A stretch of DNA of 64,000 nucleotides, taken from positions 62,001 to 126,000 of the forward strand of contig DAIDEE010000042.1 of assembly GCA_027308685.1 (NCBI GenBank). Direction: 5' to 3'. Position 1 is the first letter of the stretch. Each line of letters starts with the position of its first letter. The DNA comes from Acidocella sp. Its GTDB lineage: Bacteria > Pseudomonadota > Alphaproteobacteria > Acetobacterales > Acetobacteraceae. Below are positions 3,646 through 26,442 of the stretch, piece by piece. The notes under the pieces were generated by a model, which was not told where the DNA came from, made no database searches, and worked only from the letters and a program-made list of their open reading frames with translations. A program made the position numbers and the translations under genes.

Positions 3646-3656
3646 GGGAACGTATT

Positions 3657-4511: not shown

Positions 4512-4513
4512 TC

Positions 4514-5359
4514 ATGCCGATTGCAATTCTTGATGGGATCAGCACGCGTTACGAAGTGATGGGTGAAGGCCCGCCTTTGTTGATGTTCTCACCAGGTGGC
4601 TTTGATGCGACGGTGGAGAAATGGTCGTCGCTTGGTATTTACGCCAAGGTGAAGCCGCTTGATCATCTGTCAAAGCATTTCAAATGCATCATGTTCGACC
4701 GCCGCGAATGCGGGCAATCTGGTGGCCGGGTTGAACGCGTGACGCTGGGGCATTTTGTTAGACAGGCGAAGGCACTGCTGGATCATTTAGGAATTGAGCG
4801 CGCGCATCTGATGGGCGGTTGTATGGGGTGCAGCCCGGTGGCAGCCTTTGCGCTGGCACACCCGGAGATGGTGCTGAAGATGGTGCTGTATTGGCCTGTC
4901 GGCGGTGTGAAATACCGCATGAGCGGTCAGTTACGCTTTGCCGAGCATCTGGGCTTTGTCACTCGCCACGGTATGCAGGCGGTGGTGGATTTGGTGAAGG
5001 AATCTGGCAAGCCATTCGGCGGTGACCCGCGTGGCGGCCCGTGGGCATCGGTAATCAAAAGCGATGCGGTATTTGCACAGACCTATGCCACGCTGGATGT
5101 CGAGCGTTATAAAGTTACGGTTGTTGGCATGCAGCAATCACTGCTGGACCGCGACACAGTCCCTGGATTGGTTCCGGAAGATTTGCTGCTATGTGATATC
5201 CCGGCCTTCATCGTGCCGGGCAACGACGGTTCGCACGCTACATCTGCGGCCCGTTACTTCCACGAATGTCTGCCGAAATCCGAATATTGGGACGTGGCGA
5301 TCGACAACCAGACTGAGGCTGCCACAGCCGGAAAACTAATAACTTTCCTGCAGGCCTAA
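4514..5359 (+). CDS. alpha/beta hydrolase with cysteine nucleophile
   Basis: 281 residues with an alpha/beta-hydrolase fold: SPGGFD oxyanion region at 26-31, FDRRECGQSG at 61-70, and a nucleophile elbow GGCMG at 101-105. The nucleophile position is Cys103 (codon TGT), not Ser. A D..GSHAT segment near 240-245 and a late acidic strand may complete the triad. Cys-type elbows are known in dienelactone hydrolases, so a lactone or ring-cleavage-product hydrolase is plausible. It is the third gene of the ligJ operon, and its 3' end overlaps the convergent decarboxylase-like gene by 4 bp. The substrate cannot be read from the sequence. Confidence 0.7.
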   Translation: MPIAILDGISTRYEVMGEGPPLLMFSPGGFDATVEKWSSLGIYAKVKPLDHLSKHFKCIMFDRRECGQSGGRVERVTLGHFVRQAKALLDHLGIERAHLMGGCMGCSPVAAFALAHPEMVLKMVLYWPVGGVKYRMSGQLRFAEHLGFVTRHGMQAVVDLVKESGKPFGGDPRGGPWASVIKSDAVFAQTYATLDVERYKVTVVGMQQSLLDRDTVPGLVPEDLLLCDIPAFIVPGNDGSHATSAARYFHECLPKSEYWDVAIDNQTEAATAGKLITFLQA

Positions 5360-8721: not shown

Positions 8722-10236
8722 TTAAACGGTGCCAGGTAGTTGTTTCGTGCGCCCCAATAGTCGCTTGACGATGAAGGCGACTGGTAAATAGAGGACCGCA
8801 ATAACGATCATGGCCAGCAGAAACATCGATACTGGATCTTCGATAAAAATTCTTGGGGTTCCACCTGAGATCATGATACTCTGGTCGTAATAACGCTCAA
8901 TCTCCCCACCAAGAATAAGCGAGATCACTAAAGGCAGACGCGGGTAATCGATGACGGTAATGATAAAGCCAATGGCCGCAAACGCCAGTGACACGACAAT
9001 ATTACCAATGTTTTGATTAACCGCCCAACTGCCGAGTACAGATATACTTATTACTAAGGGTACCAATACATTGGCGCGAATAACAGTAACTTTCGCCAGA
9101 TACTTGGCCAGCAAAATGCCCGCAATGGAGGCGAATACGCAAGCCGCAACCAGTGCCCAGATCAACTCATAAATTAAATCCTGGTGTTCAATCATCAAGA
9201 GTGGGCCGGGATCGACGCCATGCAAAATCAAAATTGCGAGAAACACAGCCATCTCGGCACTGCCAGGTATTCCAAAGGCCAGTGTCGGTATCAGCGTACT
9301 GCAATCCTTGGCGTTGATAGCAGCCTCAGGAGCAATCACGCCTTTTATGTTGCCATGACCGTAAGTTTCCCGATCATTACCTGTTTGCGAGATAATCGAG
9401 TACGAAGCAAAAGCAGCAACCACGCCGCCAACACCGGGAATGGCACCGATCAATGTACCCACGAGAGATCCGCTCAGAACAACTTTCCAATTCCTGATAG
9501 TAGATTTAACTCCCTCAAAGGTCTCGGAAAATTTAAAGGCATTCGCGGTCTTGGCAATGGTGCCTCCTGAGACGAACAAGCGGATCATCTGGGTCAAAGG
9601 AAATAGACCAATGAGCGCGGGAATCAGCGGAATACCATTCCATAAGTATGGTACGTTAAATGCGTATCGAATATCGCCGGTCACAGCGTCGTAGCCGATC
9701 GTCGAAATCATCAAGCCGAACATGCCCACCAGCAAACCCTCCAGTAGTTTGCCGCTAGAGGTGAGAGAGACAATAACCAAACCAAATACGCACATGAGGA
9801 AAAATTGTGGAGGACCAAATGACAGGACAATGTTGCGTGCAATCGGAATAATCAGCAACAACGCAAATGTACCGATGATACCGCCCATGGCATTGGCACT
9901 GGCCGCGGCACCAATGGCTAGTCCGCCTTTGCCCTTTTGTGCCAGGGGGAACCCGTCGAGACAGGTTGCGGCGTTGGGGGCTGACCCTGGCGAATTGATT
10001 AAAATAGCTGAAATTGAACCTCCCATCGGTACGCCGCCCATCACACCGGCCGACAGCGCGATCGACGTCGCGGTATCGAGGCCAAAGGTCAACGGTATCA
10101 GCAAGGTTAGGCCAGTTGTTCCACCAAGGCCTGGCACCAGACCAAAAAACATTCCAAAACCAACGCCAGCAATCAAGTATAAAATATCTTTTAAAACAAA
10201 CAGACTCTCGAAACCGCTCATCCAAACACTGAACAT
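8722..10236 (-). CDS. tctA: tripartite tricarboxylate transporter large permease TctA
   Basis: 504 residues from the ATG at 10236, preceded by GGGAAGAG. The 82 residues upstream in the longest frame are basic, low-complexity and outside the family. The N-terminus has the TctA hallmark VGFGMFFGLVPGLGGTTGLTLLIPLTF (about 25-50, split by helices), and the middle has GAIPGVGGVVAAFASY and FGIPGSAEMAVFLAIL. About 12 membrane helices. It moves a carboxylated substrate with cation coupling, together with TctB (27044) and periplasmic TctC. It is first in the minus-strand operon; its partners are in another operon 13-20 kb away. Confidence 0.9.
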   Translation of the reverse strand: MFSVWMSGFESLFVLKDILYLIAGVGFGMFFGLVPGLGGTTGLTLLIPLTFGLDTATSIALSAGVMGGVPMGGSISAILINSPGSAPNAATCLDGFPLAQKGKGGLAIGAAASANAMGGIIGTFALLLIIPIARNIVLSFGPPQFFLMCVFGLVIVSLTSSGKLLEGLLVGMFGLMISTIGYDAVTGDIRYAFNVPYLWNGIPLIPALIGLFPLTQMIRLFVSGGTIAKTANAFKFSETFEGVKSTIRNWKVVLSGSLVGTLIGAIPGVGGVVAAFASYSIISQTGNDRETYGHGNIKGVIAPEAAINAKDCSTLIPTLAFGIPGSAEMAVFLAILILHGVDPGPLLMIEHQDLIYELIWALVAACVFASIAGILLAKYLAKVTVIRANVLVPLVISISVLGSWAVNQNIGNIVVSLAFAAIGFIITVIDYPRLPLVISLILGGEIERYYDQSIMISGGTPRIFIEDPVSMFLLAMIVIAVLYLPVAFIVKRLLGRTKQLPGTV

Positions 10237-10695
10237 TTTTTCTCTTCCCGCTTCAGGCTGGCCTAACGCCATTTTGGTACACTTTAACGCCCTCTCTCTG
10301 GAAAACATACTACACAATGTAGCCCGGGACGGCAGGACGCCTAGACCTCTTGTGCGATAATACGAATTTCTCCCTAACTTCCCCCGACGACGACATATAA
10401 AGCGTATTGTGCGTATTGCGAACCTTTGTCGCATAATACGGCTGTACAATAATTCGTCAAGACGTGAAAGATGGTACAACTTCGCCTTGAGTCGCCAGTC
10501 GTGTTAAAAATCTCGATCTTTAGAACTTTGCGGCTACAGCAGCAAACTTTAATCTGTTGGCCGTTTGAGCGCCTGAGGCATTTAAAGCTAACTCAACGGT
10601 TCAACGTATCCCTTCATGATCGAGGCGTGTCGAAAATTGTCTTGACGGCAGCGATGCAGCATCATATGTTCCGCATAAAGGAGTTATATTCCTCT
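10237..10695. promoter_or_regulatory. divergent control region between tctA and the IclR gene
   Basis: 459 bp without a convincing gene; open frames through it have no ribosome-binding site. It holds repeated short elements of the type CGCA(T)AATACG: 10352-10365 and 10429-10441 on the plus strand, with inverted copies at 10403-10413 and 10412-10423. A TACAAT at 10445-10450 could be the -10 box of the plus-strand promoter. AAGGAG at 10678-10683 is the ribosome-binding site of the IclR gene, 12 bp from its ATG. Confidence 0.5.
10409..10423. promoter_or_regulatory. IclR-type operator, site 2
   Basis: GTGCGTATTGCGAAC: arms GTGCG and CGAAC around a 5-bp centre, matching the other cluster sites at 9 of 10 arm positions. 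It lies between the divergent tctA and IclR genes and could control both. It is embedded in the repeated CGCA-ATACG elements. Confidence 0.5.
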
Positions 10696-11502
10696 ATGCA
10701 GAACAACAAAAAAGATGGAAGGTTGTCTTCAGTAGCCACAGCCATGCTGTTGTTGAAGAGTTTTTCTGATGAACAAAGTGAATTGGGTATTGGTGCCTTA
10801 TCGCGGCAACTTGGCCTTGCTAAAAGCACAGTGCATCGCCTTGCTTCGACTCTTCTTGACGCCGGTATGCTCGACCAGAACAAAGAAACTGGGAAATATC
10901 GGCTTGGATTAACGGTTTTTGAGTTGGGTATGTTGGCTCGCCGGAAAATGGATATTTATAACGAAGCTAAAATTTTTCTCAGGGAGTTGCGCGAAAAAAC
11001 ACAAGAGACGGTCAATCTTGCGATTATGCGCGATGATAGTTTGATATATTTAAATAGTCTCGAAGGTCCAAGCGCCATAAAAGTTCGGTCTCATATGGGT
11101 CTGCGTTTATCGGCGCATTGCTCTGCTGAGGGCAAGGTTTTGTTGGCCTTTGGCGCACCGAATGATCGAGCAAAAATCATAGCTCAAGGGTTGGTCGCCC
11201 AAACGCTCAATACCATTACCGACCCTACTGCGTTTTCCGAAGAGATGAAATTAGTTGAAAGTCGCGGTTACGCTACCGACTATGAAGAAAGTGAAATCGG
11301 CGTACGGTCAATTGCTGTCCCAGTTTTTTCAGGAGAAAATGATATTGCCGCGGCGGTCGGAATTTCTGGCCCAGTGCAACGCCTTACGAAACGCACACTA
11401 GCTTTATATTTGCCGACACTAACCAAAGCAGCCGATGCAATATCAGTCAAACTAGGTGCTGGCACGCGATATTCATCGCAGGCCCTGCGGATAGTAAAAT
11501 AA
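10696..11502 (+). CDS. IclR-family transcriptional regulator 1
   Basis: 268 residues from ATG 10696 (MQNNKKDGRL). The longest frame adds 75 residues outside the family, so the shorter start is used. It has an N-terminal winged helix-turn-helix (about 15-75; LGIGALSRQLGLAKSTVHRL) and a C-terminal effector domain (about 90-260) with HCSAEGKVLLAF and GVRSIAVPVF signatures. It is likely the local sensor of the cluster substrate. It is transcribed away from tctA and its stop overlaps the start of the first EutA-like gene (TAATG), so it is co-transcribed with the reactivase/bicupin array. Whether it represses or activates is not visible. Confidence 0.85.
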   Translation: MQNNKKDGRLSSVATAMLLLKSFSDEQSELGIGALSRQLGLAKSTVHRLASTLLDAGMLDQNKETGKYRLGLTVFELGMLARRKMDIYNEAKIFLRELREKTQETVNLAIMRDDSLIYLNSLEGPSAIKVRSHMGLRLSAHCSAEGKVLLAFGAPNDRAKIIAQGLVAQTLNTITDPTAFSEEMKLVESRGYATDYEESEIGVRSIAVPVFSGENDIAAAVGISGPVQRLTKRTLALYLPTLTKAADAISVKLGAGTRYSSQALRIVK

Positions 11503-13154
11503 TGAGCTTATGTTCAGATCGACGGTTAGTACCCAGTGTAACTATAATGCACGAACGGGACCAGGATCATTATCATGACGATGATGATTTTTCGCTTGAT
11601 CATAACCTGCAAGAAGATGGTCTTTGGCAATCTGACCATGTAGAACTAACTAGTGTAGGCATTGATATTGGATCATCCGGTACCCAAGTCGTGTTTTCGC
11701 GTATCATGTTACAGCGCGGTGGCGACCAGTTATCAAGCCGCTACTTTGTTGTTTCGCGCCAACAGCTTTACCAATCGCCTGTATCCCTCACTCCCTATAC
11801 GGCTAACTTATTGATCGATAAATCTGCTTTAGGCGCCATAATTGATGATGCGTATAACGCGGCAACTCTTGCTCCATCGCAGGTCGACACAGGGGCAGTT
11901 ATCCTTACGGGTGAAGCGTTAAGGCGTGAAAATGCACATAATATTGCTGATATTTTAGCGGCTCACGGCGGTGACTTTGTTTGCACAATGGCCGGGCATC
12001 ATATCGAAGCTATGCTTGCCGCCTATGGATCGGGCGCAGCATGGGTATCGAATGAGCAGCGTAAGCGCGTCCTCAATATTGATATCGGCGGCGGCACCAC
12101 AAAATTCGCGGTCCTCGATGCTGGTCGTGTTGTGGCAACCGCTGCGATTCATATTGGCGGGCGCTTGCATGTTTATGATTCTACTCAAAGCCTAACGCGC
12201 CTTGAACCTGCCGGCCGGGCGCTTGCAGCATCTGCCGGATGTAACTGGCAGCTTAATGGTCAAGTACCTCTCAATGAGAAAGTTGCCGTTGCAGCATGGA
12301 TGGCCCGCGCCATCATCGCAGCCGTGACTGAAGGAGAGAATGCGTCTCATTTAGAGGCATTTTGGCTTACTGAAAAATTACCTAGTCTTGTCGGTATTGA
12401 AGCTGTGATGTTTTCCGGTGGCGTCTCCGAGTTTGTGTATGGCCATGAGGACCGTGACTTTGATGATATGGGTAAATTGATCGGCACAAAACTAAGTCAG
12501 ATGCTTGCGAATAATGAGTTGCCATGGGCCGCACTGCCTGCTGGCGCGGGAATTCGGGCTACCGCTCTGGGACTATCTGAATATTCAGTACAGTTAAGCG
12601 GTAATACAATTTATGTTCCATACCCAGAAGCCGTTCTGCCGCGTCGTAATTTGAGGGTGATGCAACCGGCATACGAGTTTTATGAAATTGTTGATTCCGA
12701 TGCTATAGCGCTAGCAATTATCGATTGTTTGAATAAATATGATGTCCGTCACGGTGAAGACGATTTTGTTCTGGCCTTTCATTGGTCAGGCACACCGCGC
12801 TACGAACGGATTGCTGCCTTTGCAAAAGGTTTAGCTATGGGAATGCCATACGCGATGCAATCCAGCCAACCGGTTTATGTGGTGATAGATGGCGATATTG
12901 CGCGAACCCTAGGACGGATTTTGCAGCACGAACTGCACGTCCGCGCGCCATTGTTGATTGTGGATGGCGTTAACCTGGCAGATTTTGATTACATTGATTT
13001 CGGTACAGTGCGAATTCCGTCCAACACAGTTCCAGTCACCATTAAATCCCTGTTATTCGTGAAGGATCCAAGAATAACGCACGAGCATAATCATATTCTT
13101 CCACATGAACATGAACATGAACATGAACATGAACACGACCATCGTTGCACGTAA
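11502..13154 (+). CDS. EutA-like reactivase, copy 1, with His-rich ends
   Basis: 550 residues. Clear EutA-family ASKHA ATPase: LTSVGIDIGSSGTQVVFSR at about 49-67 (phosphate 1), DTGAVILTGEALRRENA near 129-145, NIDIGGGTTKFAV near 192-204 (phosphate 2), FSGGVSEFVYGH and PVTIKSLLF near the end. EutA normally uses ATP to swap damaged cobalamin out of ethanolamine ammonia-lyase. Unusual here: a His/Asp-rich N-terminal tail and a C-terminal (HE)n tail encoded by a hexamer repeat, suggesting metal binding. The start overlaps the IclR stop; an internal ATG at 11547 gives an N-terminus more like copy 2 and may be the true one. No B12 enzyme is adjacent; a bicupin gene follows. Confidence 0.85.
   Translation: MSLCSDRRLVPSVTIMHERDQDHYHDDDDFSLDHNLQEDGLWQSDHVELTSVGIDIGSSGTQVVFSRIMLQRGGDQLSSRYFVVSRQQLYQSPVSLTPYTANLLIDKSALGAIIDDAYNAATLAPSQVDTGAVILTGEALRRENAHNIADILAAHGGDFVCTMAGHHIEAMLAAYGSGAAWVSNEQRKRVLNIDIGGGTTKFAVLDAGRVVATAAIHIGGRLHVYDSTQSLTRLEPAGRALAASAGCNWQLNGQVPLNEKVAVAAWMARAIIAAVTEGENASHLEAFWLTEKLPSLVGIEAVMFSGGVSEFVYGHEDRDFDDMGKLIGTKLSQMLANNELPWAALPAGAGIRATALGLSEYSVQLSGNTIYVPYPEAVLPRRNLRVMQPAYEFYEIVDSDAIALAIIDCLNKYDVRHGEDDFVLAFHWSGTPRYERIAAFAKGLAMGMPYAMQSSQPVYVVIDGDIARTLGRILQHELHVRAPLLIVDGVNLADFDYIDFGTVRIPSNTVPVTIKSLLFVKDPRITHEHNHILPHEHEHEHEHEHDHRCT
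13104..13133 (+). repeat. CATGAA hexamer tandem repeat (x5)
   Basis: Five perfect copies of CATGAA, followed by a degenerate copy, inside the 3' end of the first EutA-like gene. They encode alternating His-Glu residues. Copy number could vary by slippage without shifting the frame. Confidence 0.9.
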
Positions 13155-13213
13155 GATCACACAGATTCATACTAAAACTCTAACGTTCACGATCCTTATG
13201 GAGGACAGCAGAC

Positions 13214-14347
13214 ATGGCTAAAGACGCTATGGTTTCCGAAGACCTGGCCAAGAAATTCGCCACGGAAAAAGATACGCCATATAACCGTTGGGTTGCAGCT
13301 GAAGGTCTTGACATCATCAGCGCTCACTACATCCCTGATCTCAATGACGTTGAGTTGAAGCCATGGGCTCGCCGCGGCGGCCGTGGCGTGTATATTAACC
13401 ATGAAGCGTCGCGCACTTCAAATGATTGCTACGTGCTGGAAATCCCGCCCGGTGGTGAAATAGCGCCGCAACGCCAATTATTTGAAGAAATGGTATATGT
13501 CCTGAGCGGCACTGGATCGACCAGCGTATGGAATGATGCCGGCAATAAAATGACATTCGAATGGGGCAAGGGTTCACTATTTGCGATTCCACTGAATTGC
13601 TGGCATCAGCATTTCAACGGTAGTGGTCAAACGCCGGCCCGTTTTGTGTCAGTCACTAACAGCCCGGGTATTATCAATCTTTACGAAGATGTTAGTTTTA
13701 TATTTAATACCGAACATGATTTTAAAAATCGCTTCAATGGCGAGCCTGACTACTTTGCCAACCGCGGCACGCAAAAAGGCCTGCTGCTGGAGACAAATTT
13801 TGTGGCGGATGCGGATAACCTTCCCCTAATCAGCGCTAAAGAACGCGGTGCTGGTGGCGGTCATATCCGTTTTAATCTTGCCAAGGGGTCTATGAATTGT
13901 CATATCTCGCAGTTTCCCGTTGCCACGTATAAAAAAGCCCATTGCCATGGTCCCGGAGCACACGTGATTATTATGAGCGGTGAAGGCTATTCAATGATGT
14001 GGCCGGAAGGTGCTGAACCGAAGCGTTATGATTGGAAAGTTGGTTCAATGATTGTGCCACCAAATTTGTGGTTCCATCAGCATTTTAATACTGGCACCAC
14101 ACCTGGCCGCTATCTTGCTTTCAAACATGAAGTTGTCTCCATTCGCAACACGCAGGGCGTGCCCAAAGCTTGGATCAGCCGCCGCGTTGGTGGTGACCAA
14201 ATCGATTATGCTGATGAGCCGGCAATTGTACGCACCACGTTCGCTCAGGCGCTCAAGGCAAAAGGTTTAGAACCGAAGATGACAGAGGCTTACGAATTTG
14301 AGTTGGCCGAATTCGCCAAGCAGGCGGAAATGGCATTAGCCAAGTAA
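13214..14347 (+). CDS. bicupin protein 1
   Basis: 377 residues with two cupin domains. In the C-terminal domain H243-C-H245, with PGAH following, and W-F-H288-Q-H290 form a plausible Fe/Mn site. In the N-terminal domain (about 73-145) the HxH pair is replaced by APQRQ with E91/E92, and only WHQHF (130-134) remains, so this half is probably structural. The layout recalls gentisate-type ring-cleavage dioxygenases, but the sequence is distant. It has a strong ribosome-binding site GGAGG. It lies between the two EutA-like genes. It may be the dioxygenase or an isomerase of the pathway, or the client of the neighbouring reactivases; function unproven. Confidence 0.75.
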   Translation: MAKDAMVSEDLAKKFATEKDTPYNRWVAAEGLDIISAHYIPDLNDVELKPWARRGGRGVYINHEASRTSNDCYVLEIPPGGEIAPQRQLFEEMVYVLSGTGSTSVWNDAGNKMTFEWGKGSLFAIPLNCWHQHFNGSGQTPARFVSVTNSPGIINLYEDVSFIFNTEHDFKNRFNGEPDYFANRGTQKGLLLETNFVADADNLPLISAKERGAGGGHIRFNLAKGSMNCHISQFPVATYKKAHCHGPGAHVIIMSGEGYSMMWPEGAEPKRYDWKVGSMIVPPNLWFHQHFNTGTTPGRYLAFKHEVVSIRNTQGVPKAWISRRVGGDQIDYADEPAIVRTTFAQALKAKGLEPKMTEAYEFELAEFAKQAEMALAK

Positions 14348-14420
14348 AATCGGCCGGGAATGGTATCGGGGACTATGCTCACATGGCCCCTGTTGCCGTT
14401 TATTATGAGGAGTTTGCAGA

Positions 14421-15920
14421 ATGCATGACGCGGCATTTGGGCATGAGCATCGAGATCTTTATGAAAAGGCAACCGATATTGAAGGGATCGAGCAGCTGAC
14501 GTTAACGAGCGTTGGTATCGATATTGGTTCCTCTACGTCACATCTGCTGTTTTCTCGCCTCACGCTACGCCGCGAGGGGGCAGGGCACTCTGCGCAGTAT
14601 AAAGTCACTGACCGTGAAGTGCTCTGGTCATCACCAATTTTGCTGACCCCCTATCTCTCAAAAACATTGATGAATTTTGACAAGATCAAGGGTTTTATTC
14701 ATGATTGTTATCACAGCGCAGATTTGCAGCCACATGATATCGACACTGGTGCGGTAGTCATCACGGGTGAGGCTTTGAAGAAGGAAAATGCCCAGCCGAT
14801 TAGCGAGCATTTTATGCACTCATCGGGTAAATTTATTTGCGCTTCAGCTGGTCCGCATCACGAAGCGTTGTTGGCAGCTTTCGGTAGCGGCTCGGTTCAG
14901 ATGTCCAAGGCCAGCCAAAGCCGGATCCTTAATGTTGACATGGGCGGCGGGACAACTAAATTTTCACTCATTGCAAACGGTAAAATCATTAGCACAGCAG
15001 CAATCAATATTGGTGCCCGGCTCATTGCGTTTGACAAAGACAACCGCATCACCCGCATGGAAGATGCTGGCAGCATCTTCTCGCTTGAGGCTGGTCAAAA
15101 GCGAGCGGTTGACGATATCATCCGAGACGACGAAAAGCAAAAAATTGGTTCTCTGATGGGACAGGTGCTGATTGATGTTTTGAAACACGGCGACGCGATG
15201 AGCCTGTTTGCCCGTCGTTTGATGATCACTCCGGCCTTAGAAAATTTTAGCGGGTTGGACAACGTTGACTATATTATCTTTTCTGGCGGTGTTGCTGAAT
15301 ATATATATCACCACACCGAAAATACATACGGCGACCTCGGCCCATTCTTGGGTGGTACATTGTGCGATTATCTTGATACGTTACCACGCGGCACATTGAT
15401 GAAACCAACCCAGGGGATTCGTGCCACCGTGATTGGTGCTAGCGAGTACACTGTGCAGGTCAGCGGAGCGACCAGCTTTTTTACTTCGACATCCAATTTA
15501 CCTGCCTATGGTTTGAAGGCGGTGTATGTCAGCCATATCGTTGGTACTTCATTTTCAGAATCGCTCCAAAGGGCTTTTATTAAATATGATATTTATGAAT
15601 TTAGGGCGGGCCTAGCAATATCAGTTTCAATTGATGGCAATCTAAACTATGCGTCTCTTAAAGAGATCGCTGCTGGTCTTGTTGAAGCGGTTAAAAAATC
15701 ACCAGAAATTCCAGTGATTCTGACTATAGAACAGGATGTTGCTTGCTCACTAGGATCAATTTTGAAAAATGAACTAAAATTAGCTAACGAGTTGATTTCG
15801 ATAGATGGTATTTCCGTTGGTATGCTTGATTATATTGATATCGGTAAACCAGTAAGCATGCTGGAGTTGTTTCCGGTGACCGTTAAGTCATTACTTTTTT
15901 CATCCGAACCGCTACTCTGA
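14421..15920 (+). CDS. EutA-like reactivase, copy 2
   Basis: 499 residues, a paralogue of copy 1: LTSVGIDIGSSTSHLLFSR at about 29-45, DTGAVVITGEALKKENA near 108-124, NVDMGGGTTKFSL near 171-183, FSGGVAEYIYHH and PVTVKSLLF at the end. The nucleotide-binding loops look intact. The N-terminus has only a weak His/Glu stretch (GHEHRD) and there is no His-rich C-terminus. The ribosome-binding site is GAGGAG. It is placed between bicupin 1 and bicupin 2, so the array reads reactivase-bicupin twice. The duplication of the pair suggests a functional EutA:bicupin partnership, for example two different client enzymes. The role is inference; the family call is firm. Confidence 0.85.
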   Translation: MHDAAFGHEHRDLYEKATDIEGIEQLTLTSVGIDIGSSTSHLLFSRLTLRREGAGHSAQYKVTDREVLWSSPILLTPYLSKTLMNFDKIKGFIHDCYHSADLQPHDIDTGAVVITGEALKKENAQPISEHFMHSSGKFICASAGPHHEALLAAFGSGSVQMSKASQSRILNVDMGGGTTKFSLIANGKIISTAAINIGARLIAFDKDNRITRMEDAGSIFSLEAGQKRAVDDIIRDDEKQKIGSLMGQVLIDVLKHGDAMSLFARRLMITPALENFSGLDNVDYIIFSGGVAEYIYHHTENTYGDLGPFLGGTLCDYLDTLPRGTLMKPTQGIRATVIGASEYTVQVSGATSFFTSTSNLPAYGLKAVYVSHIVGTSFSESLQRAFIKYDIYEFRAGLAISVSIDGNLNYASLKEIAAGLVEAVKKSPEIPVILTIEQDVACSLGSILKNELKLANELISIDGISVGMLDYIDIGKPVSMLELFPVTVKSLLFSSEPLL

Positions 15921-15966
15921 GAAAAGTGGCATATAATATTTTATCACTTTTAGCGAGGAGTAGTCT

Positions 15967-17127
15967 ATGTCGAAGGAAGCCAGTAAAGCGACGCAACGTC
16001 TATGGACAAAAAAATTTAGTTACGATTACTGGATGGAAGATCAGAATATTCCCATTCACAAAGGTTATTACATCGCTGACCTTCGCACGGTCGAATTGGA
16101 ATATTGGGAATTCGCCAAATGTCGTGCTGCCTTCGTGCAGTTGGTCGGTCAGGAGGGTGTAACTTCCACCCGTATTCTCGAAATCCCGCCCGGCGAAACT
16201 TTGAAGATGCCAAAAGCGGCGTTCGATGAAATCGTCTATGCCTTGAATGGTAACGGCCTCACCACGCATATATTGCCAGGTGGCGGTAAGCGTACCTTTG
16301 AATGGCAGCCTCACAGCATGTTCACCATGCCGCGTCATGGTGCCTACGAACTTTCAAACACTGATGGTAATAGGCCGGTACGCTTGCTGTTCTTCAACTA
16401 TCTACCAATGGCGATGTCCACTGTGCCGGATCCTGAATTTTATTTCAACAACTCCGGTACACCGCCCCATGCGACAGAATCAGATTTCTACTCTGAGGCC
16501 AAGATGGTCAAGCCGAGCGACGCCGGTGACGCCTATTTGGGCAAGCGCATTTATTGGTATGGTAATTTTTTCCCAAACATGCAAGCCTGGGACAAAATGA
16601 ACGATAACACCCATCGTGGTGCGGGCAGCACCAGTGTTTATTGCCAGTTTCCAGACACCGAGCTCTCCGCCCATATGTCTGAGTTTGGCGCCCGCACCTA
16701 TAAGAAGGCTCATCGTCACGGACCAGGTCGTGCGATTATTATCCCGGTCGGCGAGGGCTATTCGATCATGTGGGAAGAGGGCAAGGAGAAGGTCTTCATC
16801 CCTTGGCAGGAATGCAGCCTGTTCGTGCCGCCAAATCGTTGGTTTCACCAGCATTTTAACGTTGGCACCGTACCGGCACGCTATCTGGCGATGCACCCGC
16901 CCATGCAGTTCCATGGCCATGCAGAAAAAGTCACTGATCGTGCGAAGGATCAAATTGAATATGTTGACGAAGACCCGTTGGTTCGGGAACGCTTTGAGGC
17001 TGAACTTGCCAAGAGGGGAACAACATCGCTGATGGACCCAAAGGCTTATACGACCCGCGACTTTGACTGGACGAAATTTGCCGCCAATGTTCATGGCAGC
17101 GAGGGTATTCCAAGCATTATTGGCTAA
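15967..17127 (+). CDS. bicupin protein 2
   Basis: 386 residues, same architecture as bicupin 1. The C-terminal cupin has KKAH249-R-H251-GPG, a GEGYSIMWEEG strand pair and WFH294-Q-H296-FN. The N-terminal cupin lacks HxH (EIPPGETLKMPKAAFDE) and keeps only acidic residues near 87-88. It shares the KAHxHGPG and VPPNxWFHQHFN signatures with bicupin 1, but the N-terminal halves differ considerably. ATG follows GAGGAG. It is the last member of the reactivase/bicupin array, 63 bp upstream of the decarboxylase-like C gene. Candidate metal-dependent oxygenase or isomerase acting on the pathway substrate. Confidence 0.75.
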   Translation: MSKEASKATQRLWTKKFSYDYWMEDQNIPIHKGYYIADLRTVELEYWEFAKCRAAFVQLVGQEGVTSTRILEIPPGETLKMPKAAFDEIVYALNGNGLTTHILPGGGKRTFEWQPHSMFTMPRHGAYELSNTDGNRPVRLLFFNYLPMAMSTVPDPEFYFNNSGTPPHATESDFYSEAKMVKPSDAGDAYLGKRIYWYGNFFPNMQAWDKMNDNTHRGAGSTSVYCQFPDTELSAHMSEFGARTYKKAHRHGPGRAIIIPVGEGYSIMWEEGKEKVFIPWQECSLFVPPNRWFHQHFNVGTVPARYLAMHPPMQFHGHAEKVTDRAKDQIEYVDEDPLVRERFEAELAKRGTTSLMDPKAYTTRDFDWTKFAANVHGSEGIPSIIG

Positions 17128-17190
17128 GTGGATCGGGCTTTCTCGAAAAAAACGGATTGTTCGGTCCAACCTCCTAGAATAGGGAATCCG

Positions 17191-18180
17191 ATGAAAAAGC
17201 TGCCGCTAACTCTAGCGTGTTGGGATTACGACCGAACTCGTGCTTTGGCCGACGGACGGGTTGTGATTGATGGTGTTGATCTCAATTATGTTTCGTTGCC
17301 TGTCGAAGAAACATTCTTTCGTATGTTGCGTTTCCGTGAGTTTGATGCGGCGGAGCTTTCATTGTCCTCGTACGCGGTTTCGCTATTGCGCGAGGACCCG
17401 GCGTTTATAGCCATTCCAGTGTTTCCATCGCGGTTTTTTCGCCATTCCTGCATCTTTATTGCGGCCAAAAGTGGCATTGAAACGGCGGCTGATCTGATCG
17501 GTAAACGTGTGGGTGTTCCCGAATATCAAATGACAGCGCCTGTGTGGATTCGAGGAATTCTACAAGATGAATATGGCATCGACCCGGCTTGCATAACCCA
17601 CCACACGGGCGGCGAAGAAGAACCTGGGCGGATAGAAAAGCTGAAGCTGGAACTGCCCGAAAAATTTAAGCTCAGCTCACTCGGCCCCACCCAGACGCTC
17701 TCACAAATGATTGTTGATGGCGAAATCGATGCATTATTCACTGCCCGTGCGCCCAGTACGTTTTACACTCATCCCGATAAGGTAAAGCGCTTATTTCCTA
17801 ACACTGAAACTGAGAGGGCCTATTTCAAAAAGACCAATATATTTCCCATTATGCATGTCATCGTTCTACGGCGTGACGTGTATCAGGCTAATAAATGGGT
17901 AGCTCAATCACTTTACAAAGCATTTGAAGAAGCCAAAAAAATCACTTACGATGATTTGCGTATTACTGCTGCCCTAAAAACCTCACTGCCCTGGCAGATA
18001 TCGGCTGTTGAAGACGTTGTCGGTTTGATGGGTCAAGATTGGTGGTCGTATGGCTTCGCCAATAATCGCCATGTGCTCGATGTTTTCCTACGCTATCACC
18101 ACGAACAAGGCCTCTCGCCGCGCCGGCTGCATCCAGAAGAATTGTTCGCGCCGGAAACCTTGGAGGCCTTCAAAATTTGA
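17191..18180 (+). CDS. 4,5-dihydroxyphthalate decarboxylase-like protein C
   Basis: 329 residues from ATG 17191, with AGGGAA 6 bp upstream. The longer GTG frame starting at 17128 only adds a non-family leader. Third family member of the cluster: LTLACWDYDRTRAL start, FDAAELSLSSYAVSL near 55-70, FPSRFFRHSCIFI near 88-100, DLIGKRVGVPEYQMTAPVWIRG near 110-132 and SYGFANNRHVLD near 288. No signal peptide. It differs from A and B in the central motif (MTAPVWIRG against VTTGVW), so it probably acts on another substrate. It closes the reactivase/bicupin operon before an internal promoter. Confidence 0.7.
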   Translation: MKKLPLTLACWDYDRTRALADGRVVIDGVDLNYVSLPVEETFFRMLRFREFDAAELSLSSYAVSLLREDPAFIAIPVFPSRFFRHSCIFIAAKSGIETAADLIGKRVGVPEYQMTAPVWIRGILQDEYGIDPACITHHTGGEEEPGRIEKLKLELPEKFKLSSLGPTQTLSQMIVDGEIDALFTARAPSTFYTHPDKVKRLFPNTETERAYFKKTNIFPIMHVIVLRRDVYQANKWVAQSLYKAFEEAKKITYDDLRITAALKTSLPWQISAVEDVVGLMGQDWWSYGFANNRHVLDVFLRYHHEQGLSPRRLHPEELFAPETLEAFKI

Positions 18181-18283
18181 GGTTTGCCCCCATCATAGTT
18201 GCGGGTAATGTTATTGTCGCCCGCCTGTGGTGAAAGGCAAAAATTTCTAAAGCGCAGAGTCGTGCGATACAGGAAGGGCTTGA

Positions 18284-18312
18284 TTGACCGCAACGCGACA
18301 GCCATGTATTAT
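18284..18312 (+). promoter_or_regulatory. sigma70 promoter of the Rieske oxygenase genes
   Basis: TTGACC at 18284-18289 and TATTAT at 18307-18312 with a 17-bp spacer, in the 209-bp gap after decarboxylase-like C. It would give the ferredoxin-reductase-oxygenase genes their own promoter inside the larger operon. Confidence 0.6.
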
Positions 18313-18319
18313 AACATTT

Positions 18320-18334
18320 GTCCGGAGAGCGAAC
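18320..18334. promoter_or_regulatory. IclR-type operator, site 3
   Basis: GTCCGGAGAGCGAAC: arms GTCCG and CGAAC around five bases, within a wider TTTGT...ACAAA symmetry. It lies 7 bp after the -10 box of the Rieske promoter, the same layout as sites 1 and 4. One arm has a mismatch to GTTCG. Confidence 0.45.
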
Positions 18335-18389
18335 AAAAAAATTCCCCGGCTTGGTTATCACATTGTTACTAATGAGGAAGTGGCACTTT

Positions 18390-18731
18390 ATGAGCGAGGC
18401 AGCAAATTTTATCAAGCTTTGCGCGGTAGGCGATGTCAGCCAGGACCTGCCGTTTAGAGCACAGCTTGAGGGAACCGACCTCGCGGTCTTCCAGATTGAT
18501 GATGCGTATTACGTGACACAGGACCTTTGCACCCATGGGCCTGGCTCGTTGTGCGAGGGTTATGTGGACGGCGATGAAATCGAATGTCCGTTCCATCAAG
18601 GTAAGTTCAACATCATCACAGGCAAACCCACGGCGGCCCCTTGCACAGAGGCGTTAAAAATATGGAACGTGATGGTCAAGGATAATAAAATCATGATCGA
18701 CCCTGCTTCAGGTCATGTCGCTACACCATGA
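18390..18731 (+). CDS. Rieske [2Fe-2S] ferredoxin
   Basis: 113 residues from ATG 18390, which has GAGGAAG 9 bp upstream; an in-frame ATG at 18318 would add an unconserved leader. The Rieske cluster ligands are C47-T-H49 and C66-P-F-H69. The length fits the soluble ferredoxins of naphthalene/biphenyl-type three-component dioxygenases. It carries electrons from the adjacent reductase to the oxygenase. Its stop overlaps the reductase start (ATGA), indicating coupling. Confidence 0.9.
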   Translation: MSEAANFIKLCAVGDVSQDLPFRAQLEGTDLAVFQIDDAYYVTQDLCTHGPGSLCEGYVDGDEIECPFHQGKFNIITGKPTAAPCTEALKIWNVMVKDNKIMIDPASGHVATP

Positions 18732-20032
18732 GTCAGCCTGTCTCCACTTTGCCGTTATGTGAGGCCCGTGTAGCGGCACTAGTTGCTGGCGTAGTTGTGA
18801 TTGGAGCTGGGCAGGCGGGCGGGCGGGCGGTTGAAACGTTACGCGCGCAGGGTTTTTCTGGCGCCATCACCCTTATTGGTGATGAGCCAGACCCTCCCTA
18901 TGAGCGTCCCTCCTTATCCAAGGAAATGCTGCATGTTACCGACCAGGAAACCATCGCTTGGGTACAGAAGCCGGAGTTTTATGCAGCCAATAAAATTGAT
19001 TTCCGGCCAGGCACGCGCGTGGCAGCCATCAATCGTGGTCAGCACAGCGTCACGCTCGAGGGCGGCGATGAGATCAAGTACGGTGCGCTTATCATCGCGA
19101 CCGGGGCCCGGGTTCGGCATCTTAATCTGCCGGGGGCGAGCCTGCAGAACAGTCACTACATTCGCACCCTGGCTGACAGCCGGGCGTTGCGCCAGCGTCT
19201 GGTCGCAGGTAGCCGCGTGGTGGTGATTGGAGCGGGCTTCATAGGCCTTGAAGCTGCTGCGGCGGCGGTGACGCGTGGATGTGCGGTGAGTGTGATCGAG
19301 ATTGGATCGCAGCCGCTCGGCCGGGTCGTGCCTGCCCAGGTTGGCGCCTACTATGAGGCCCTGCACGCATCTCATGGAGTTAAGTTCTATTTTAACACCA
19401 GTCTTGCTCGCTTTCACCAGCGTGATGAAACGGTGATCGTGGAAACGGGTACTGGAGACATGATTCCAGCAGAAACCGTAATTGTGGGCATTGGCGTGAT
19501 CCCCAATGCCGAGCTTGCTGGCAATGCCGGCCTACCAGTTGAGCGTGGCATTATTGTTGATGAATACGGCTGTACGGCGGACAAGTTCATATTTGCAGTT
19601 GGCGATGTGGCTTATCATTTCAACCCGCTTTTTGACCGGCATATTTTATTGGAAAGTTGGCAGAACGCGCAGAACCAGGCGATCACCATCGCCAAAAATC
19701 TGACAAGTTTGGCCGGGGCCGTACCATACGCCGAACTGCCGTGGTTCTGGAGCGATCAGTACGACGTGAATTTACAGATGTTCGGTCTCGCTGAGCCAGA
19801 AGCTGATTGCATTATTCGCGGTAACCCGAAAACGAAATCTTGGATCCTGTTCCAACTTAAAAGTAACCGCATGATCTGCGCCATCGGTATGAACGCGGCC
19901 CGTGACCTTCGTCCGGCGCGAGATCTGATCACGATGGGTGCAGTCCTAAAGTCTGAGGAACTAGCTGATATCAGCGTACCGATGGCCGAAATACTGCGTC
20001 GTGAAAAGCGCGAACGTGCGTTGGTTGGTTAA
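18728..20032 (+). CDS. FAD-dependent ferredoxin reductase
   Basis: 434 residues; NAD(P)H:ferredoxin reductase of the BphA4/rubredoxin-reductase type. FAD motif VVIGAGQAGGRA near 22-33, PPYERPSLSKEML near 57-69, a second dinucleotide motif VVVIGAGFIGLEAAA near 159-173, and the FAD C-terminal motif FAVGDVA near 296-302. The C-terminus has the reductase domain with PWFWSDQYD. It starts inside the ferredoxin stop codon. It supplies electrons to the Rieske oxygenase that follows 41 bp downstream. Confidence 0.9.
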   Translation: MSQPVSTLPLCEARVAALVAGVVVIGAGQAGGRAVETLRAQGFSGAITLIGDEPDPPYERPSLSKEMLHVTDQETIAWVQKPEFYAANKIDFRPGTRVAAINRGQHSVTLEGGDEIKYGALIIATGARVRHLNLPGASLQNSHYIRTLADSRALRQRLVAGSRVVVIGAGFIGLEAAAAAVTRGCAVSVIEIGSQPLGRVVPAQVGAYYEALHASHGVKFYFNTSLARFHQRDETVIVETGTGDMIPAETVIVGIGVIPNAELAGNAGLPVERGIIVDEYGCTADKFIFAVGDVAYHFNPLFDRHILLESWQNAQNQAITIAKNLTSLAGAVPYAELPWFWSDQYDVNLQMFGLAEPEADCIIRGNPKTKSWILFQLKSNRMICAIGMNAARDLRPARDLITMGAVLKSEELADISVPMAEILRREKRERALVG

Positions 20033-20073
20033 AATAATAATTGTCATCATCTAACCATCGATAAGGTGAAATC

Positions 20074-21360
20074 ATGTTAAGGGCTGAACAAAACGAACTC
20101 GTGACACGAACTGGTCCCGGAACGCCGATGGGTGAGATGTTCCGTCGTTACTGGTTACCGGCGTTGCTTGCAGAGGAATTGCCGGAAAACGACTGCCCAC
20201 CAGTACGGGTAAAGCTGTTGTCTGAACGCTTGCTGGCAGTACGCGATACCGAGGGTAAATATGGTTTGATTGATGAATTTTGCGCGCACCGTGGTGTCTC
20301 GCTGTGGTTTGGCCGCAATGAGGAATGTGGGATTCGTTGCCCTTACCACGGCTGGAAATACGGGGTGAACGGTGAGTGTCTTGATGTACCTTCTGAGCCT
20401 GAGGAAAGTGGTTACCGGCAGAAAATCAAACTAAAGGCTTATCCGTTGGTTGAGCGAGGTGGCATTTTGTGGACCTACATGGGCCCACCTGAATTACAGC
20501 CTGCACCGCCAGAGTGGGAGTTTATCATGGTGCCGCTCGAGCAGACTTTCTCGTCAAAACGGCTGCAGGAAAACAATTGGTTGCAGGCTATGGAAGGCGG
20601 TATCGATAGCGCGCATGTCTCGTTTTTGCATCGCGGCAACCTGAATTCAGACCCGCTGTTCAAGGGCGCGCGTGGTAATCAGTACAACCTGAATGACTCG
20701 CAACCATTTTTTGAAGTGGTTGATGCGCCGGCTGGTCTGTATATCGGTGCGCGCCGCCGCGCGGAAAACCAAACCTATTATTGGCGCATCACGCCATGGG
20801 TTATGCCCTGCTTTACTATGGTGCCACCGCGCGGCGACCATCCAATTCATGGTCATTTCTGGGTTCCGATTGACGATGAGAATTGCTGGGCCTGGAGTTT
20901 TGATTACCACCCGACACGTAAACTTTCAGAAACTGAAGTGGCAGCCATGAAGGATGGAAAGGGGATCCACGTGAAATACGTGCCAGGTACCTACCGGCCG
21001 CTGGCCAATAAGGACAACGACTATTTGATGAACCGTGCCGCTCAAAAGGCCGGCACAACTTATAGTGGTGTTGAGGGTATCGGTATGCAGGACGCCTCAT
21101 TGCAGGAGAGTATGGGCCCGATTGTTGACCGTACCAAGGAAAACCTCACGACCACCGACAATGGTATAATCATGGCGCGCTTAAAGTTGATTCGTGCGGC
21201 GCGTGCTCTGGCCGACAAAGGCACTCTGCCGCCCGGCCGTTTGCCCGAGGAACAACAAATCCGCTCAGCAGCCGTGGTGCTTGAAGCCGAGAAAAACTTC
21301 CTCGATGGCGGTGCCACTTGGTTGCAGGTAAAAGCTGGTAAACCATTTGCCTCTGTTTGA
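20074..21360 (+). CDS. Rieske oxygenase alpha subunit, phthalate 4,5-dioxygenase-like
   Basis: 428 residues. Rieske ligands C70-x-H72 and C89-x2-H92, and a mononuclear iron site with D178, H181 and H186 in GGIDSAHVSFLH. The start (NELVTRTGPGTPMGEMFRRYWLPALL) and the C-terminal layout are those of the phthalate 4,5-dioxygenase (Pht3/OphA2)-like homotrimeric oxygenases, which have no beta subunit. Here the partners are a Rieske ferredoxin and a BphA4-type reductase, not the fused phthalate dioxygenase reductase. The likely reaction is ring hydroxylation or O-demethylation of an aromatic carboxylate. The substrate is not readable from sequence. Confidence 0.85.
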   Translation: MLRAEQNELVTRTGPGTPMGEMFRRYWLPALLAEELPENDCPPVRVKLLSERLLAVRDTEGKYGLIDEFCAHRGVSLWFGRNEECGIRCPYHGWKYGVNGECLDVPSEPEESGYRQKIKLKAYPLVERGGILWTYMGPPELQPAPPEWEFIMVPLEQTFSSKRLQENNWLQAMEGGIDSAHVSFLHRGNLNSDPLFKGARGNQYNLNDSQPFFEVVDAPAGLYIGARRRAENQTYYWRITPWVMPCFTMVPPRGDHPIHGHFWVPIDDENCWAWSFDYHPTRKLSETEVAAMKDGKGIHVKYVPGTYRPLANKDNDYLMNRAAQKAGTTYSGVEGIGMQDASLQESMGPIVDRTKENLTTTDNGIIMARLKLIRAARALADKGTLPPGRLPEEQQIRSAAVVLEAEKNFLDGGATWLQVKAGKPFASV

Positions 21361-21380: not shown

Positions 21381-21842
21381 ATGAAAAATAAAACTAGCAC
21401 CGTACATATAAGTGCCGCAGCCGAACAGGCCAGGTTCCGCGTACAATCTCCAAATTCATCACCAAGGGAAATTTTGGTGGTCCCGCTCGGTGAACAATCA
21501 AACCACGTACTGGAAGAAGTGGCCGCACAAACGTACCGTAATGCTAAATTCGTACCTTACACGACATCAGGTGAGCCTTGGCGCAGTATCATCATGGATT
21601 GCCAACTCGATTTGGTGGTGATGGTCGGGCATGTCGGCGAGCATCTTGCACAGGTCATCTCTATAGGTGAAACCTGTATGTCTCGACAGGTTAAAATATC
21701 TGGTGTTCTCATCCACAAAAATGCCAATCAGGTTGCCGCTTTATCCAGCGCCCTACGCAGCGTTCGGCCCTGGACCCAAACGCTCGCAGTGGTCTCGCAA
21801 GCAGATTACCTGCCAGGTTTGTTGCACGCTCTTGGAGCATGA
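21381..21842 (+). CDS. unknown protein of the Rieske/ChrA operon
   Basis: 153 residues, no recognised family. It looks like a small alternating alpha/beta domain: strands ILVVPLGE near 32-39, DLVVMVGHVGEH near 75-86, ISGVLIHKN and TLAVVSQADYLPGLLHALG at the end. It has no signal peptide or membrane segment. It begins 20 bp after the oxygenase and overlaps the first chrA gene by 4 bp (ATGA), so it belongs to the operon. There is no strong ribosome-binding site, so it may be translated by coupling. Confidence 0.6.
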   Translation: MKNKTSTVHISAAAEQARFRVQSPNSSPREILVVPLGEQSNHVLEEVAAQTYRNAKFVPYTTSGEPWRSIIMDCQLDLVVMVGHVGEHLAQVISIGETCMSRQVKISGVLIHKNANQVAALSSALRSVRPWTQTLAVVSQADYLPGLLHALGA

Positions 21843-22420
21843 GCGACATAAAGACTGCAGCGGCGAGCACGGTTCCAGAGGAGCCTCTCGTTCGGCCTCG
21901 TCTCAGCGCAATATTTGGTTGCTTTTTCCTTATTGGGTCGCAAAGCTTCGGCGGGGGCACCACCGCATGGTTGCGCCGCGAAGTTGTTATCAAACGCGGT
22001 TGGCTGACCGACAAACAATTCCTGGCATCGCTGGCCATTTGTCAGATCACCCCCGGCCCAAATCCATTGAATATGTCAGTTTTTTTAGGCAGCGTGCTGG
22101 GCGGCACCTTGGGAGCATTGGCAGGCTTTGCCGGCATGATGGCGTTTCCCACGCTCCTATGCCTCGCTCTGGGCGCTTTGTATTTCACCTATAATCAAGT
22201 TCCAGGACTTGAAATTCTGCTGGGGGGGGTAGGCGCCGTTGCTATTGGCATGAATCTCGCCAACGCGATCCGCCTCACTCGTAAAAATATTCATAAGTTC
22301 CGACAATTAGCCGTCATCGTCCTGGTGTCAGTTGCTGTGGGCATTTGTCATTTTCCGTTGTTGTACGTGCTGGTTGTTTCGGTCCCCCTTAATCTATTGG
22401 TCGAAATCTGTCAGCCATGA
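21839..22420 (+). CDS. ChrA-family transporter, N-terminal half protein
   Basis: 193 residues, about five to six membrane helices, PF02417-type chromate-ion-transporter half. Signatures: FFLIGSQSFGGGTTAWLRRE near 24-43, GWLTDKQFLASLAICQITPGPNPLNMSVFLG near 48-78. It overlaps its neighbours at both ends by 4 bp. Short ChrA proteins work as pairs with opposite membrane topology. In this catabolic operon, anion movement linked to the aromatic acid seems likelier than chromate resistance; that is inference. Confidence 0.8.
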   Translation: MSDIKTAAASTVPEEPLVRPRLSAIFGCFFLIGSQSFGGGTTAWLRREVVIKRGWLTDKQFLASLAICQITPGPNPLNMSVFLGSVLGGTLGALAGFAGMMAFPTLLCLALGALYFTYNQVPGLEILLGGVGAVAIGMNLANAIRLTRKNIHKFRQLAVIVLVSVAVGICHFPLLYVLVVSVPLNLLVEICQP

Positions 22421-22944
22421 TCCTTCAGCTCACAGCGCTGATCAAGGTTTTTGGTGGCCTATCATTACTGGCTATCGGGGGCGGCAACGCCCTGATTCCA
22501 GACATGCAGCGGGTGGTGGTGGACCAATACCACTGGCTTACCGCCCGCGAATTTCTCGACCTGTTCGCCATCACGCGGGCCACACCCGGGCCAGGCAGCA
22601 CAATCGTCCTTTTGATTGGCCAAAAAGTAGCAGGCTTACCAGGTGCGTTCATCGGGGCACTCGCCATGTTCGTACCGTCCTCGCTACTTGTATTCATTCT
22701 ATCTTGTCTCTGGCATCGTACCCGGCACTCTAAGTCTATCAAGGTCATTGAAAATACCCTTGGGCCGATCGCAATCGGTTTGATTTTTGCAAGTGCGATG
22801 GTGCTGATTGAGGCCACCGAGCACCATTTTCTAGCTTGGGCCATCACGCTGTTCGCCACGGTGGTCCTCGCAATCACCGAGATGAATCCAATGATTATTC
22901 TGGCCGCGGGCGCAGGTATCTCTTTAGCGATATCGCTTCTCTAG
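22417..22944 (+). CDS. ChrA-family transporter, second half protein
   Basis: 175 residues, partner of the preceding half. Signatures: FGGLSLLAIGGGNALIPDM near 11-29 and FLDLFAITRATPGPGSTIVLLIG near 45-67, matching the conserved FGGG and TPGP motifs of ChrA. About five helices. It is the last gene of the Rieske operon; the following 249 bp hold the promoter and operator of the next operon and no gene. Confidence 0.8.
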   Translation: MILQLTALIKVFGGLSLLAIGGGNALIPDMQRVVVDQYHWLTAREFLDLFAITRATPGPGSTIVLLIGQKVAGLPGAFIGALAMFVPSSLLVFILSCLWHRTRHSKSIKVIENTLGPIAIGLIFASAMVLIEATEHHFLAWAITLFATVVLAITEMNPMIILAAGAGISLAISLL

Positions 22945-25773: not shown

Positions 25774-26409
25774 GTGACCGGCCTTTACGACAGGAATACG
25801 GCAAATAACTCTCCTGAAACCGCCGCTCACGATCACGCGCACGACCACGATCATCCGCACGCCCACGAAGGCCATAACCTACCCCCAGGCGATGGTGCCA
25901 AATGGGACCGTTGGGCCAAAGAACGCGTGTTCGTTCGTGCCCTTAAGGGTACCTACAGCAATTTATATGAGCAACTTGTTGACCAGCCACGCGTCTATAA
26001 GTCACGCGATGAAGCCTGGAAGGGCGGCCCTGGTTTGTATGGCAAGCACATCATAAGCCCACAACATGCCAGCGTCACGCAATCCATCGAAACTCACATC
26101 GAAGCATACGCGCCAGGCGCTTACGGCCAAAAGCATGGACATCTGAACAGCGCTGTATTCTATGTTCTCGAAGGCCGTGGTCATGACGTGCATGACGGCC
26201 GCCGCATTGACTGGCAGGCCGGCGATGTCATGATCGTGGAAAATGGCTGCGTACATCAACATTTTAACGATGACCCAGACAACCGCGCCGTGCTGTTGGT
26301 ATTCAAGGCCAAGCCGCTGTTCCACTTTATGCATCTTATTTTTCAAAAAATCGTTTCCTTCCCACCGAGTACCGGAAATGAGGACTTCCGTCCGCCGTCA
26401 GACCTTTAA
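25774..26409 (+). CDS. single-domain cupin with His-rich N-terminus
   Basis: 211 residues starting at GTG 25774 (GGGAG 9 bp upstream). The N-terminal tail is an Asp/His repeat (AHDHAHDHDHPHAHEGH, about 18-34), similar in kind to the tails of the first EutA-like protein. The cupin core lies near 110-175: KHGHLNSAVFYVLEGRG, a WQAGDVMIVE turn and CVHQHFN. The HxH...E/H set suggests a bound metal. No signal peptide. It is in the operon between the porin and a second cupin. Function unknown; a small dioxygenase, isomerase or metal-delivery partner is possible. Confidence 0.7.
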   Translation: MTGLYDRNTANNSPETAAHDHAHDHDHPHAHEGHNLPPGDGAKWDRWAKERVFVRALKGTYSNLYEQLVDQPRVYKSRDEAWKGGPGLYGKHIISPQHASVTQSIETHIEAYAPGAYGQKHGHLNSAVFYVLEGRGHDVHDGRRIDWQAGDVMIVENGCVHQHFNDDPDNRAVLLVFKAKPLFHFMHLIFQKIVSFPPSTGNEDFRPPSDL

Positions 26410-26442
26410 TTGCGGTCGGAAACATTGAAATTGGAGTCGAAT

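Follow-up and report, generated by a model that had tools for sequence, protein, structure and literature searches.

Why should relatives of EutA, a protein that replaces spent cobalamin by adenosylcobalamin on ethanolamine ammonia-lyase (PMC9426561), be encoded among genes for aromatic-acid breakdown, side by side with cupins? This question is raised by a 64,000-nucleotide stretch of DNA from an Acidocella sp. (contig DAIDEE010000042.1, positions 62,001 to 126,000; hereafter the window), in which two genes for EutA-like ATPases, EutA1 (11502–13154) and EutA2 (14421–15920), alternate with two genes for bicupins, CupA (13214–14347) and CupB (15967–17127). The four open reading frames lie on the plus strand with gaps of only 59, 73 and 46 nt, between an IclR regulator gene and a Rieske oxygenase set; the alternation within one operon, noted in a preliminary description of the sequence, is thereby upheld. 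The comparisons given below indicate an almost certain functional partnership between the EutA-like ATPase and the bicupin. With a probability of roughly 60%, we favour the reading in which the ATPase would act as an ATP-driven chaperone that loads or reactivates the metal centre of the bicupin.

Both ATPases match the EutA family PF06277 over model positions 2–474 of 475 (E-values of 1.6e-111 for EutA1 and 2.5e-111 for EutA2; 374 and 373 bits against a cut-off of 27), and the nucleotide loops are intact in each of them, reading GIDIGSSG, DIGGGTTK and SGGV in EutA1, and GIDIGSST, DMGGGTTK and SGGV in EutA2. The initial assignment to EutA-family ASKHA ATPases is therefore sound. The full-length family match, the loops and the length are what these proteins have in common with classical EutA. 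On the other hand, the NCBIfam EutA equivalog cut-offs (598–952 bits) were not reached, the best scores being 301.8 and 309, and the bicupin-type EutAs differ from the classical ones in having a bicupin instead of a eutBC partner, in lying on the other side of one tree branch, and, in most types, in bearing a His motif and, in some proteins, a His tail, both of which are missing from all seven eutBC-linked EutAs of our set. Other Pfam matches of the two proteins were limited to weak ones with BcrAD_BadFG, MreB_Mbl and Hydantoinase_A, and no P-loop GTPase or ATPase domain was among them. A PDB sequence search with EutA2 returned nothing at E 0.01.

CupA and CupB belong to one bicupin family (alignment A1). 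CupA matches Cupin_2 with an E-value of 1e-11; CupB falls below the cut-off (9e-4) and scores 444 bits against the A1 profile, of which it is itself a row. In the alignment, 22 of the 23 members match Cupin_2 at E ≤0.001. All 48 aligned bicupins have H288 and H290 in the C-terminal barrel, and 39 of the 48 retain H243-x-H245. Both window bicupins retain this C-terminal HxH and HQH, which are putative metal ligands (H243-x-H245 and H288-Q-H290 of CupA, encoded at 13940–14083), while the His ligands of the N-terminal cupin are gone from CupB, whose C-terminal site is intact. The family resembles gentisate 1,2-dioxygenase and the 5-aminosalicylate dioxygenase MabB in its two cupin domains, its His ligands and its aromatic-acid cluster. 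It differs from MabB in scoring far below the equivalog cut-off: CupA gave only a partial match (41.7 bits against 650, residues 80–155), and CupB none. Among solved structures, the best match of the family profile, whose matches are weak, was gentisate dioxygenase 3bu7 (E 4e-5 over 40 residues); a PDB sequence search returned nothing at E 0.01 for CupA, and only hits of E 0.1 or worse for CupB. A cupin sharing an operon with a EutA gene is also found in classical eut operons, namely EutQ; however, this protein has only one cupin domain, lacks metal-binding His and is encoded many genes away from EutA (PMC3483176), and it is not of the bicupin family.

The association of the two proteins was followed in 62 loci (the window, a further locus of the same genome (L006), three Acidocella metagenome-assembled genomes (MAGs), rhizobial plasmids and other genomes), which together hold 66 EutA genes without linkage to eutBC; this count leaves aside two short fragments (G651, G659) and three further Sinorhizobium pairs (L077–L079). 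The EutAs were assigned to types, which are labels drawn from the tree and the neighbourhoods, type IV being the non-type-II part of one 20-row clade; EutA1 is of type I. A bicupin gene on the same strand and 0 to 182 nt away accompanies 49 of the 66 EutA genes, and in 12 of these 49 pairs the gap is shorter than 5 nt. The remaining 17 comprise 12 type II EutAs, two genes for which the contig ends on the relevant side (L055, L072), one with a convergent cupin gene (L032) and two orphans (L026, L068). By comparison, no bicupin match was obtained in any of the seven loci with eutBC-linked EutAs (L015, L016, L035–L039). The four-gene arrangement of the window recurs in the three Acidocella MAGs, where a contig end cuts CupB in L011; a contig scan yielded Acidocella relatives only, at three loci, and the closest relatives found are Acidocella MAGs, with 81–88% for EutA2. 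The third EutA of the window's own genome (contig C49, L006 8395–9933) also directly follows a bicupin gene.

The same association is seen at the level of whole genomes. Using PF06277 at E ≤1e-30 for EutA and the A1 profile at E ≤1e-20 for the bicupin, we found EutA in 8 of 288 alphaproteobacterial genomes, and the bicupin in exactly the same eight. The probability of this identical distribution is 9.4e-16 if genomes are taken as independent; the eight genomes fall in four family codes only (f1, f93, f101 and f109), so that fewer events than genomes are involved. A sample of 397 genomes of the phylum has EutA in six and the bicupin only in the genome of the window, the other five having EutB beside EutA. 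The class sample and a further set of genomes together hold 26 genomes with a bicupin-type EutA, and the test for EutB covered seven of them, all from the class sample, plus that of the window: EutB was missing from 7/7 outside the window's genome, other B12 enzymes not having been searched for. Finally, a bicupin search in 30 genomes, namely 22 of the 26 EutA-positive ones (all except G651, G653, G655 and G665) and 8 of the 40 EutA-negative relatives of that further set, gave 1 to 15 matches in each of the 22, and none in seven of the eight relatives.

Trees of both partners point in the same direction. In a EutA tree of 71 rows, from which three fragments of less than 380 residues were omitted, one branch parts 64 bicupin-type from 7 eutBC-linked rows with a support of 92 in the Shimodaira–Hasegawa-like approximate likelihood-ratio test; we regard this support as only moderate, since the tree is a quick one and some of the eutBC-linked rows are long-branched. 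In the tree of 46 EutA-adjacent bicupins (three of less than 300 residues omitted), the EutA types require no more than the minimum of four changes, a value as low as in none of 200 shuffles, although close relatives inflate this result. The type I, type III, type IV and window-type-2 bicupins each occupy one side of a branch with a support of 100. The EutA-like proteins are thus separated from eutBC-linked EutA by one branch, and a placement inside ordinary EutA with a B12 eliminase as client was not seen. Both the conserved adjacency and the branch support the proposal that these proteins are to be grouped with the bicupins rather than the B12 ammonia-lyase.

Further observations concern the neighbourhoods of these genes. 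The two orphan EutAs (L026 8625–10187 and L068 5409–6902), both of type III, are sisters in the tree (support 94), and their loci are without a bicupin match; the genes preceding the one in L026 are presumably kdp-like. In L025, L027 and their relatives there is a conserved set in the order UbiD, EutA, NicO, single cupin, RidA-like, ornithine-cyclodeaminase-like and binding-protein-like; here the RidA label, and those of nearby VOC- and FAH-like genes, are our assumption. A 474-residue protein without Pfam match (L020 5347–6771) has relatives near type III pairs, over six loci (L019, L020, L041, L042, L047 and L049).

How might the ATPase act on the bicupin? A clue is offered by His residues at the protein ends. 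An N-terminal motif HD..H.H is present on most bicupin-type EutAs and on none of the seven eutBC-linked ones. In a looser form the pattern is found in 41/41 non-type-III EutAs whose N-terminal end is available, and in 0/24 type III EutAs. Type III pairs have the motif on the bicupin instead, as MPHD..HWHEP or MAPHDGPDGHTHEW, in 18 of 21 cases by pattern, a count that inspection by eye of L044 and of L040, which has the variant MHQD..HWHEP, raises to 20, leaving L029 as the exception; in the bicupins of other types it occurs in 0/28, one of which (L022) is cut at that end. Furthermore, type I EutAs have at least five His within their last 40 residues (14 of 15; the other is truncated where its contig ends), a tail found in none of 52 open reading frame entries of other types and in none of the seven eutBC-linked EutAs. 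In the window, EutA1 shows both features: MHERDQDHYH, encoded at 11547–11576, where an ATG at 11547 offers a possible alternative start, and a His-rich C-terminal tail at 13071–13151. EutA2 begins with MHDAAFGHEH.

In the chaperone reading, the EutA-like protein would open its bicupin client, as EutA does on ammonia-lyase, and in the opened bicupin an inactive metal centre would be exchanged or the right metal loaded. The metal, possibly nickel, with cobalt or iron open, may be handed over through the short His motif, which is found on one partner in nearly every EutA–bicupin pair; the two pairs of the window would then serve one pathway. We infer the contact between the partners, the ATP-dependent activation, the identity of the metal and the reaction of the bicupin from these comparisons. 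The exchange of a metal or cofactor, put forward in the preliminary description, is suggested circumstantially by the His motifs together with nickel transporter genes at some loci. A likeness may be drawn to HypB, UreG and CooC, which we take to be nickel-insertion nucleoside triphosphatases: here too an NTPase with a His-rich end occurs near nickel uptake genes at some loci. However, those proteins presumably have a P-loop fold, whereas the window proteins have the EutA/ASKHA fold.

Nickel itself is only tentatively proposed. On a plasmid of Phyllobacterium zundukense, a type III pair adjoins genes for a NixA-type transporter and for NikR. A NicO-like gene directly follows the type II EutA in 8 of 12 loci according to BLAST, seven of these being confirmed by PF03824. 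In four genomes (G189, G270, G656 and G657) this NicO is the sole PF03824 match, and neither urease nor NiFe-hydrogenase gave a match there, 20 of the 26 genomes having been tested for these enzymes. Taken as a whole, the more specific scheme in which an ASKHA ATPase of EutA ancestry loads nickel (or cobalt) into bicupins and reactivates them, with the His motif on either partner, is possible but doubtful.

Several observations weigh against the chaperone reading or parts of it. As for the pairing, the 12 type II EutAs of the 66 follow UbiD (directly upstream in 11/12 loci) with a single-domain cupin nearby (10/12) and not a bicupin, and two type III EutAs (L026, L068) are orphans; adjacency of a bicupin to EutAs lacking eutBC, for which a check was suggested at the outset, is thus conserved but not universal. 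One genome, G654 (71% complete), has two bicupin matches with no EutA seen. The A1 profile, for which bicupins of EutA loci were the source, may favour such members; it also picks up bicupins far from any EutA, in G101. The C-terminal HxH is lost in 9/48 bicupins, and the switch of the His motif between the partners is one event on the trees, and should therefore be read as a striking single event and not as a statistic. Both structure models, from shallow alignments, were too poor (pLDDT, i.e. predicted local distance difference test score, of 47.9 for CupA and 44.8 for EutA2), hence no fold evidence was used. As for nickel, G652 has urease; NikR and NixA were not found in the three Sinorhizobium regions examined; NicO is missing from the cluster in two type II loci, L018 and L048, and in G658 it stands beside UbiD and not EutA. 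In view of these cases, nickel is only weakly tied to EutA. In addition, PF03824, a family that presumably includes cobalt carriers as well, gives no match in 9 of the 26 EutA genomes, and in the window's genome, which also has urease and NiFe hydrogenase, NikR and NixA (L080) are located away from any EutA.

Alternatively, the EutA-like ATPase and the bicupin could be subunits of one ATP-using enzyme that consumes ATP for catalysis instead of repair. ASKHA subunits occur in hydantoinase/oxoprolinase and in acetone carboxylases, and EutA2 has a weak match with Hydantoinase_A (E 2e-4, below cut-off). The tight pairing, with gaps below 5 nt in 12 of 49 pairs, and the matching subtypes of the partners would fit such an enzyme, as would the presence of exactly one EutA and one bicupin in 9 of 22 genomes (G109, G661, G662, G664, G666, G667, G669, G671 and G672). 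Nevertheless, we consider it rather unlikely, though a serious rival: both proteins align with the EutA model from end to end, and bicupins exceed EutAs in several genomes (15 against 2 in G101, 7 against 4 in G270), so that one ATPase could serve clients encoded elsewhere, which favours a shared helper over a fixed subunit. In G101 (2.4 Mb), the bicupin matches are distributed over contigs C17, C7 and C8, several of them in tandem runs.

It is improbable that UbiD, a prenyl-FMN decarboxylase, or another enzyme of the cluster is the client and that the bicupins merely travel along. The position of UbiD in type II loci speaks for it, as does its occurrence within about 5 kb in 4/9 type IV loci; yet no UbiD match was found in the fetched type I and type III loci or in the window cluster, and it is the bicupin that tracks EutA across genomes.

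That no B12 enzyme stands beside the EutA genes, part of the initial account, is correct. The window nevertheless includes eutC and eutB, which that account does not mention; they encode a B12-dependent ethanolamine ammonia-lyase (PF05985, PF06751) and are found on the minus strand at 48303–50475, 31 kb downstream of the module; there is no EutA gene beside them, and this EutB is the only match of the genome. EutA1 and EutA2 could in principle be ordinary reactivases of this orphan enzyme that have been relocated. This is very improbable in view of the 7/7 other bicupin-type genomes without EutB, the scores far short of the equivalog cut-offs and the single branch that sets the eutBC-linked EutAs apart. 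Moreover, the Acinetobacter ethanolamine ammonia-lyase is reported to work without EutA (PMC9426561), so that a lone ammonia-lyase does not necessarily require a reactivase. EutA1 matches BcrAD_BadFG weakly (E 9.7e-6, below cut-off), which might point to an ATP-driven activator that supplies electrons to a radical enzyme, in the manner of BcrA/D or HgdC; such a role is hardly credible, as 32 aligned EutAs contain no invariant or near-invariant Cys for a shared [4Fe-4S] cluster (the best column has Cys in 15/32 rows, or 15/25 bicupin-type rows).

The reaction of the bicupins can be approached from the genes around them. The aromatic-acid setting of the module, proposed at the outset, is supported by genes for an IclR regulator, TctA, a Rieske ferredoxin, a ferredoxin reductase and a LigXa-type Rieske oxygenase with LigXa_C domain (the last three at 18318–21360, plus strand), an amidohydrolase, an HpcH/HpaI aldolase and an alpha/beta hydrolase of the same catabolic cluster (2623–5359, plus strand), and an alcohol dehydrogenase (ADH). 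No match to extradiol or intradiol ring-cleavage families was found in the Pfam-scanned genes of this cluster, in which the aldolase and the hydrolase are present; the bicupins are therefore natural candidates for ring cleavage. Most likely, the bicupin is a metal-dependent enzyme acting on aromatic acids, a dioxygenase of the ring-cleavage type. Rhizobial plasmids carry a version of the same cluster, with 73–74% for the Rieske oxygenase, 80% for ADH, 79–80% for the amidohydrolase, 62–63% for the alpha/beta hydrolase and 44–45% for the IclR regulator. Each version has two EutA–bicupin pairs, which are of different subtypes (EutAs 37–42% and bicupins 26–39% identical). With a shared core and different pairs, what the pathway seems to require is the module as such and not one given ortholog, as far as sequence comparison can tell.

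A search of open-licence PubMed Central papers found no description of a EutA–bicupin system, in agreement with the statement that no such arrangement had been described, and we know of no ATP-dependent helper described for cupin metalloenzymes. The present data suggest that cupin enzymes of aromatic-acid breakdown have an ATP-driven activation system not described so far, which would extend the reactivase principle to cupin metalloenzymes. EutA-family proteins are commonly labelled as ethanolamine ammonia-lyase reactivating factors. A whole alphaproteobacterial branch of the family appears to have another class of client; such annotations would then be wrong, as for the EutA-family protein beside a bicupin in Phyllobacterium, which is annotated as ethanolamine ammonia-lyase reactivating factor. 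In G101, with its 15 bicupins, the helper may be required for a set of reactions yet to be mapped. The EutA–bicupin pair is a directly testable two-gene system.

Turning to the other features of the window, the operon opens with the IclR-family regulator gene (10471–11502, plus strand; PF01614/PF09339), whose true start is probably further in. A scan of 10000–18400 for promoters and terminators stayed near the shuffled expectation (18 against 12.0, standard deviation 3.0, and 11 against 9.1, standard deviation 2.9, respectively), and the window contains no tRNA genes. Abutting CupB, a gene at 17128–18180 (plus strand) encodes a binding-protein-like protein without Pfam match, with a weak SsuA_fam match below cut-off; relatives of it are present in other EutA loci, and we assume a resemblance to 4,5-dihydroxyphthalate decarboxylase. 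At 25774–26988, two adjacent single-cupin genes, the second of them distantly related to the bicupins, have a TctB gene and genes for molybdopterin hydroxylase as neighbours. Their interpretation as a single bicupin interrupted by a stop was given up, as the second open reading frame has its own ATG at 26442; both genes look intact. Finally, a pair of chromate-transporter-family genes (21839–22944) lies within the aromatic cluster and is present also in the rhizobial plasmid version (L013, L014).

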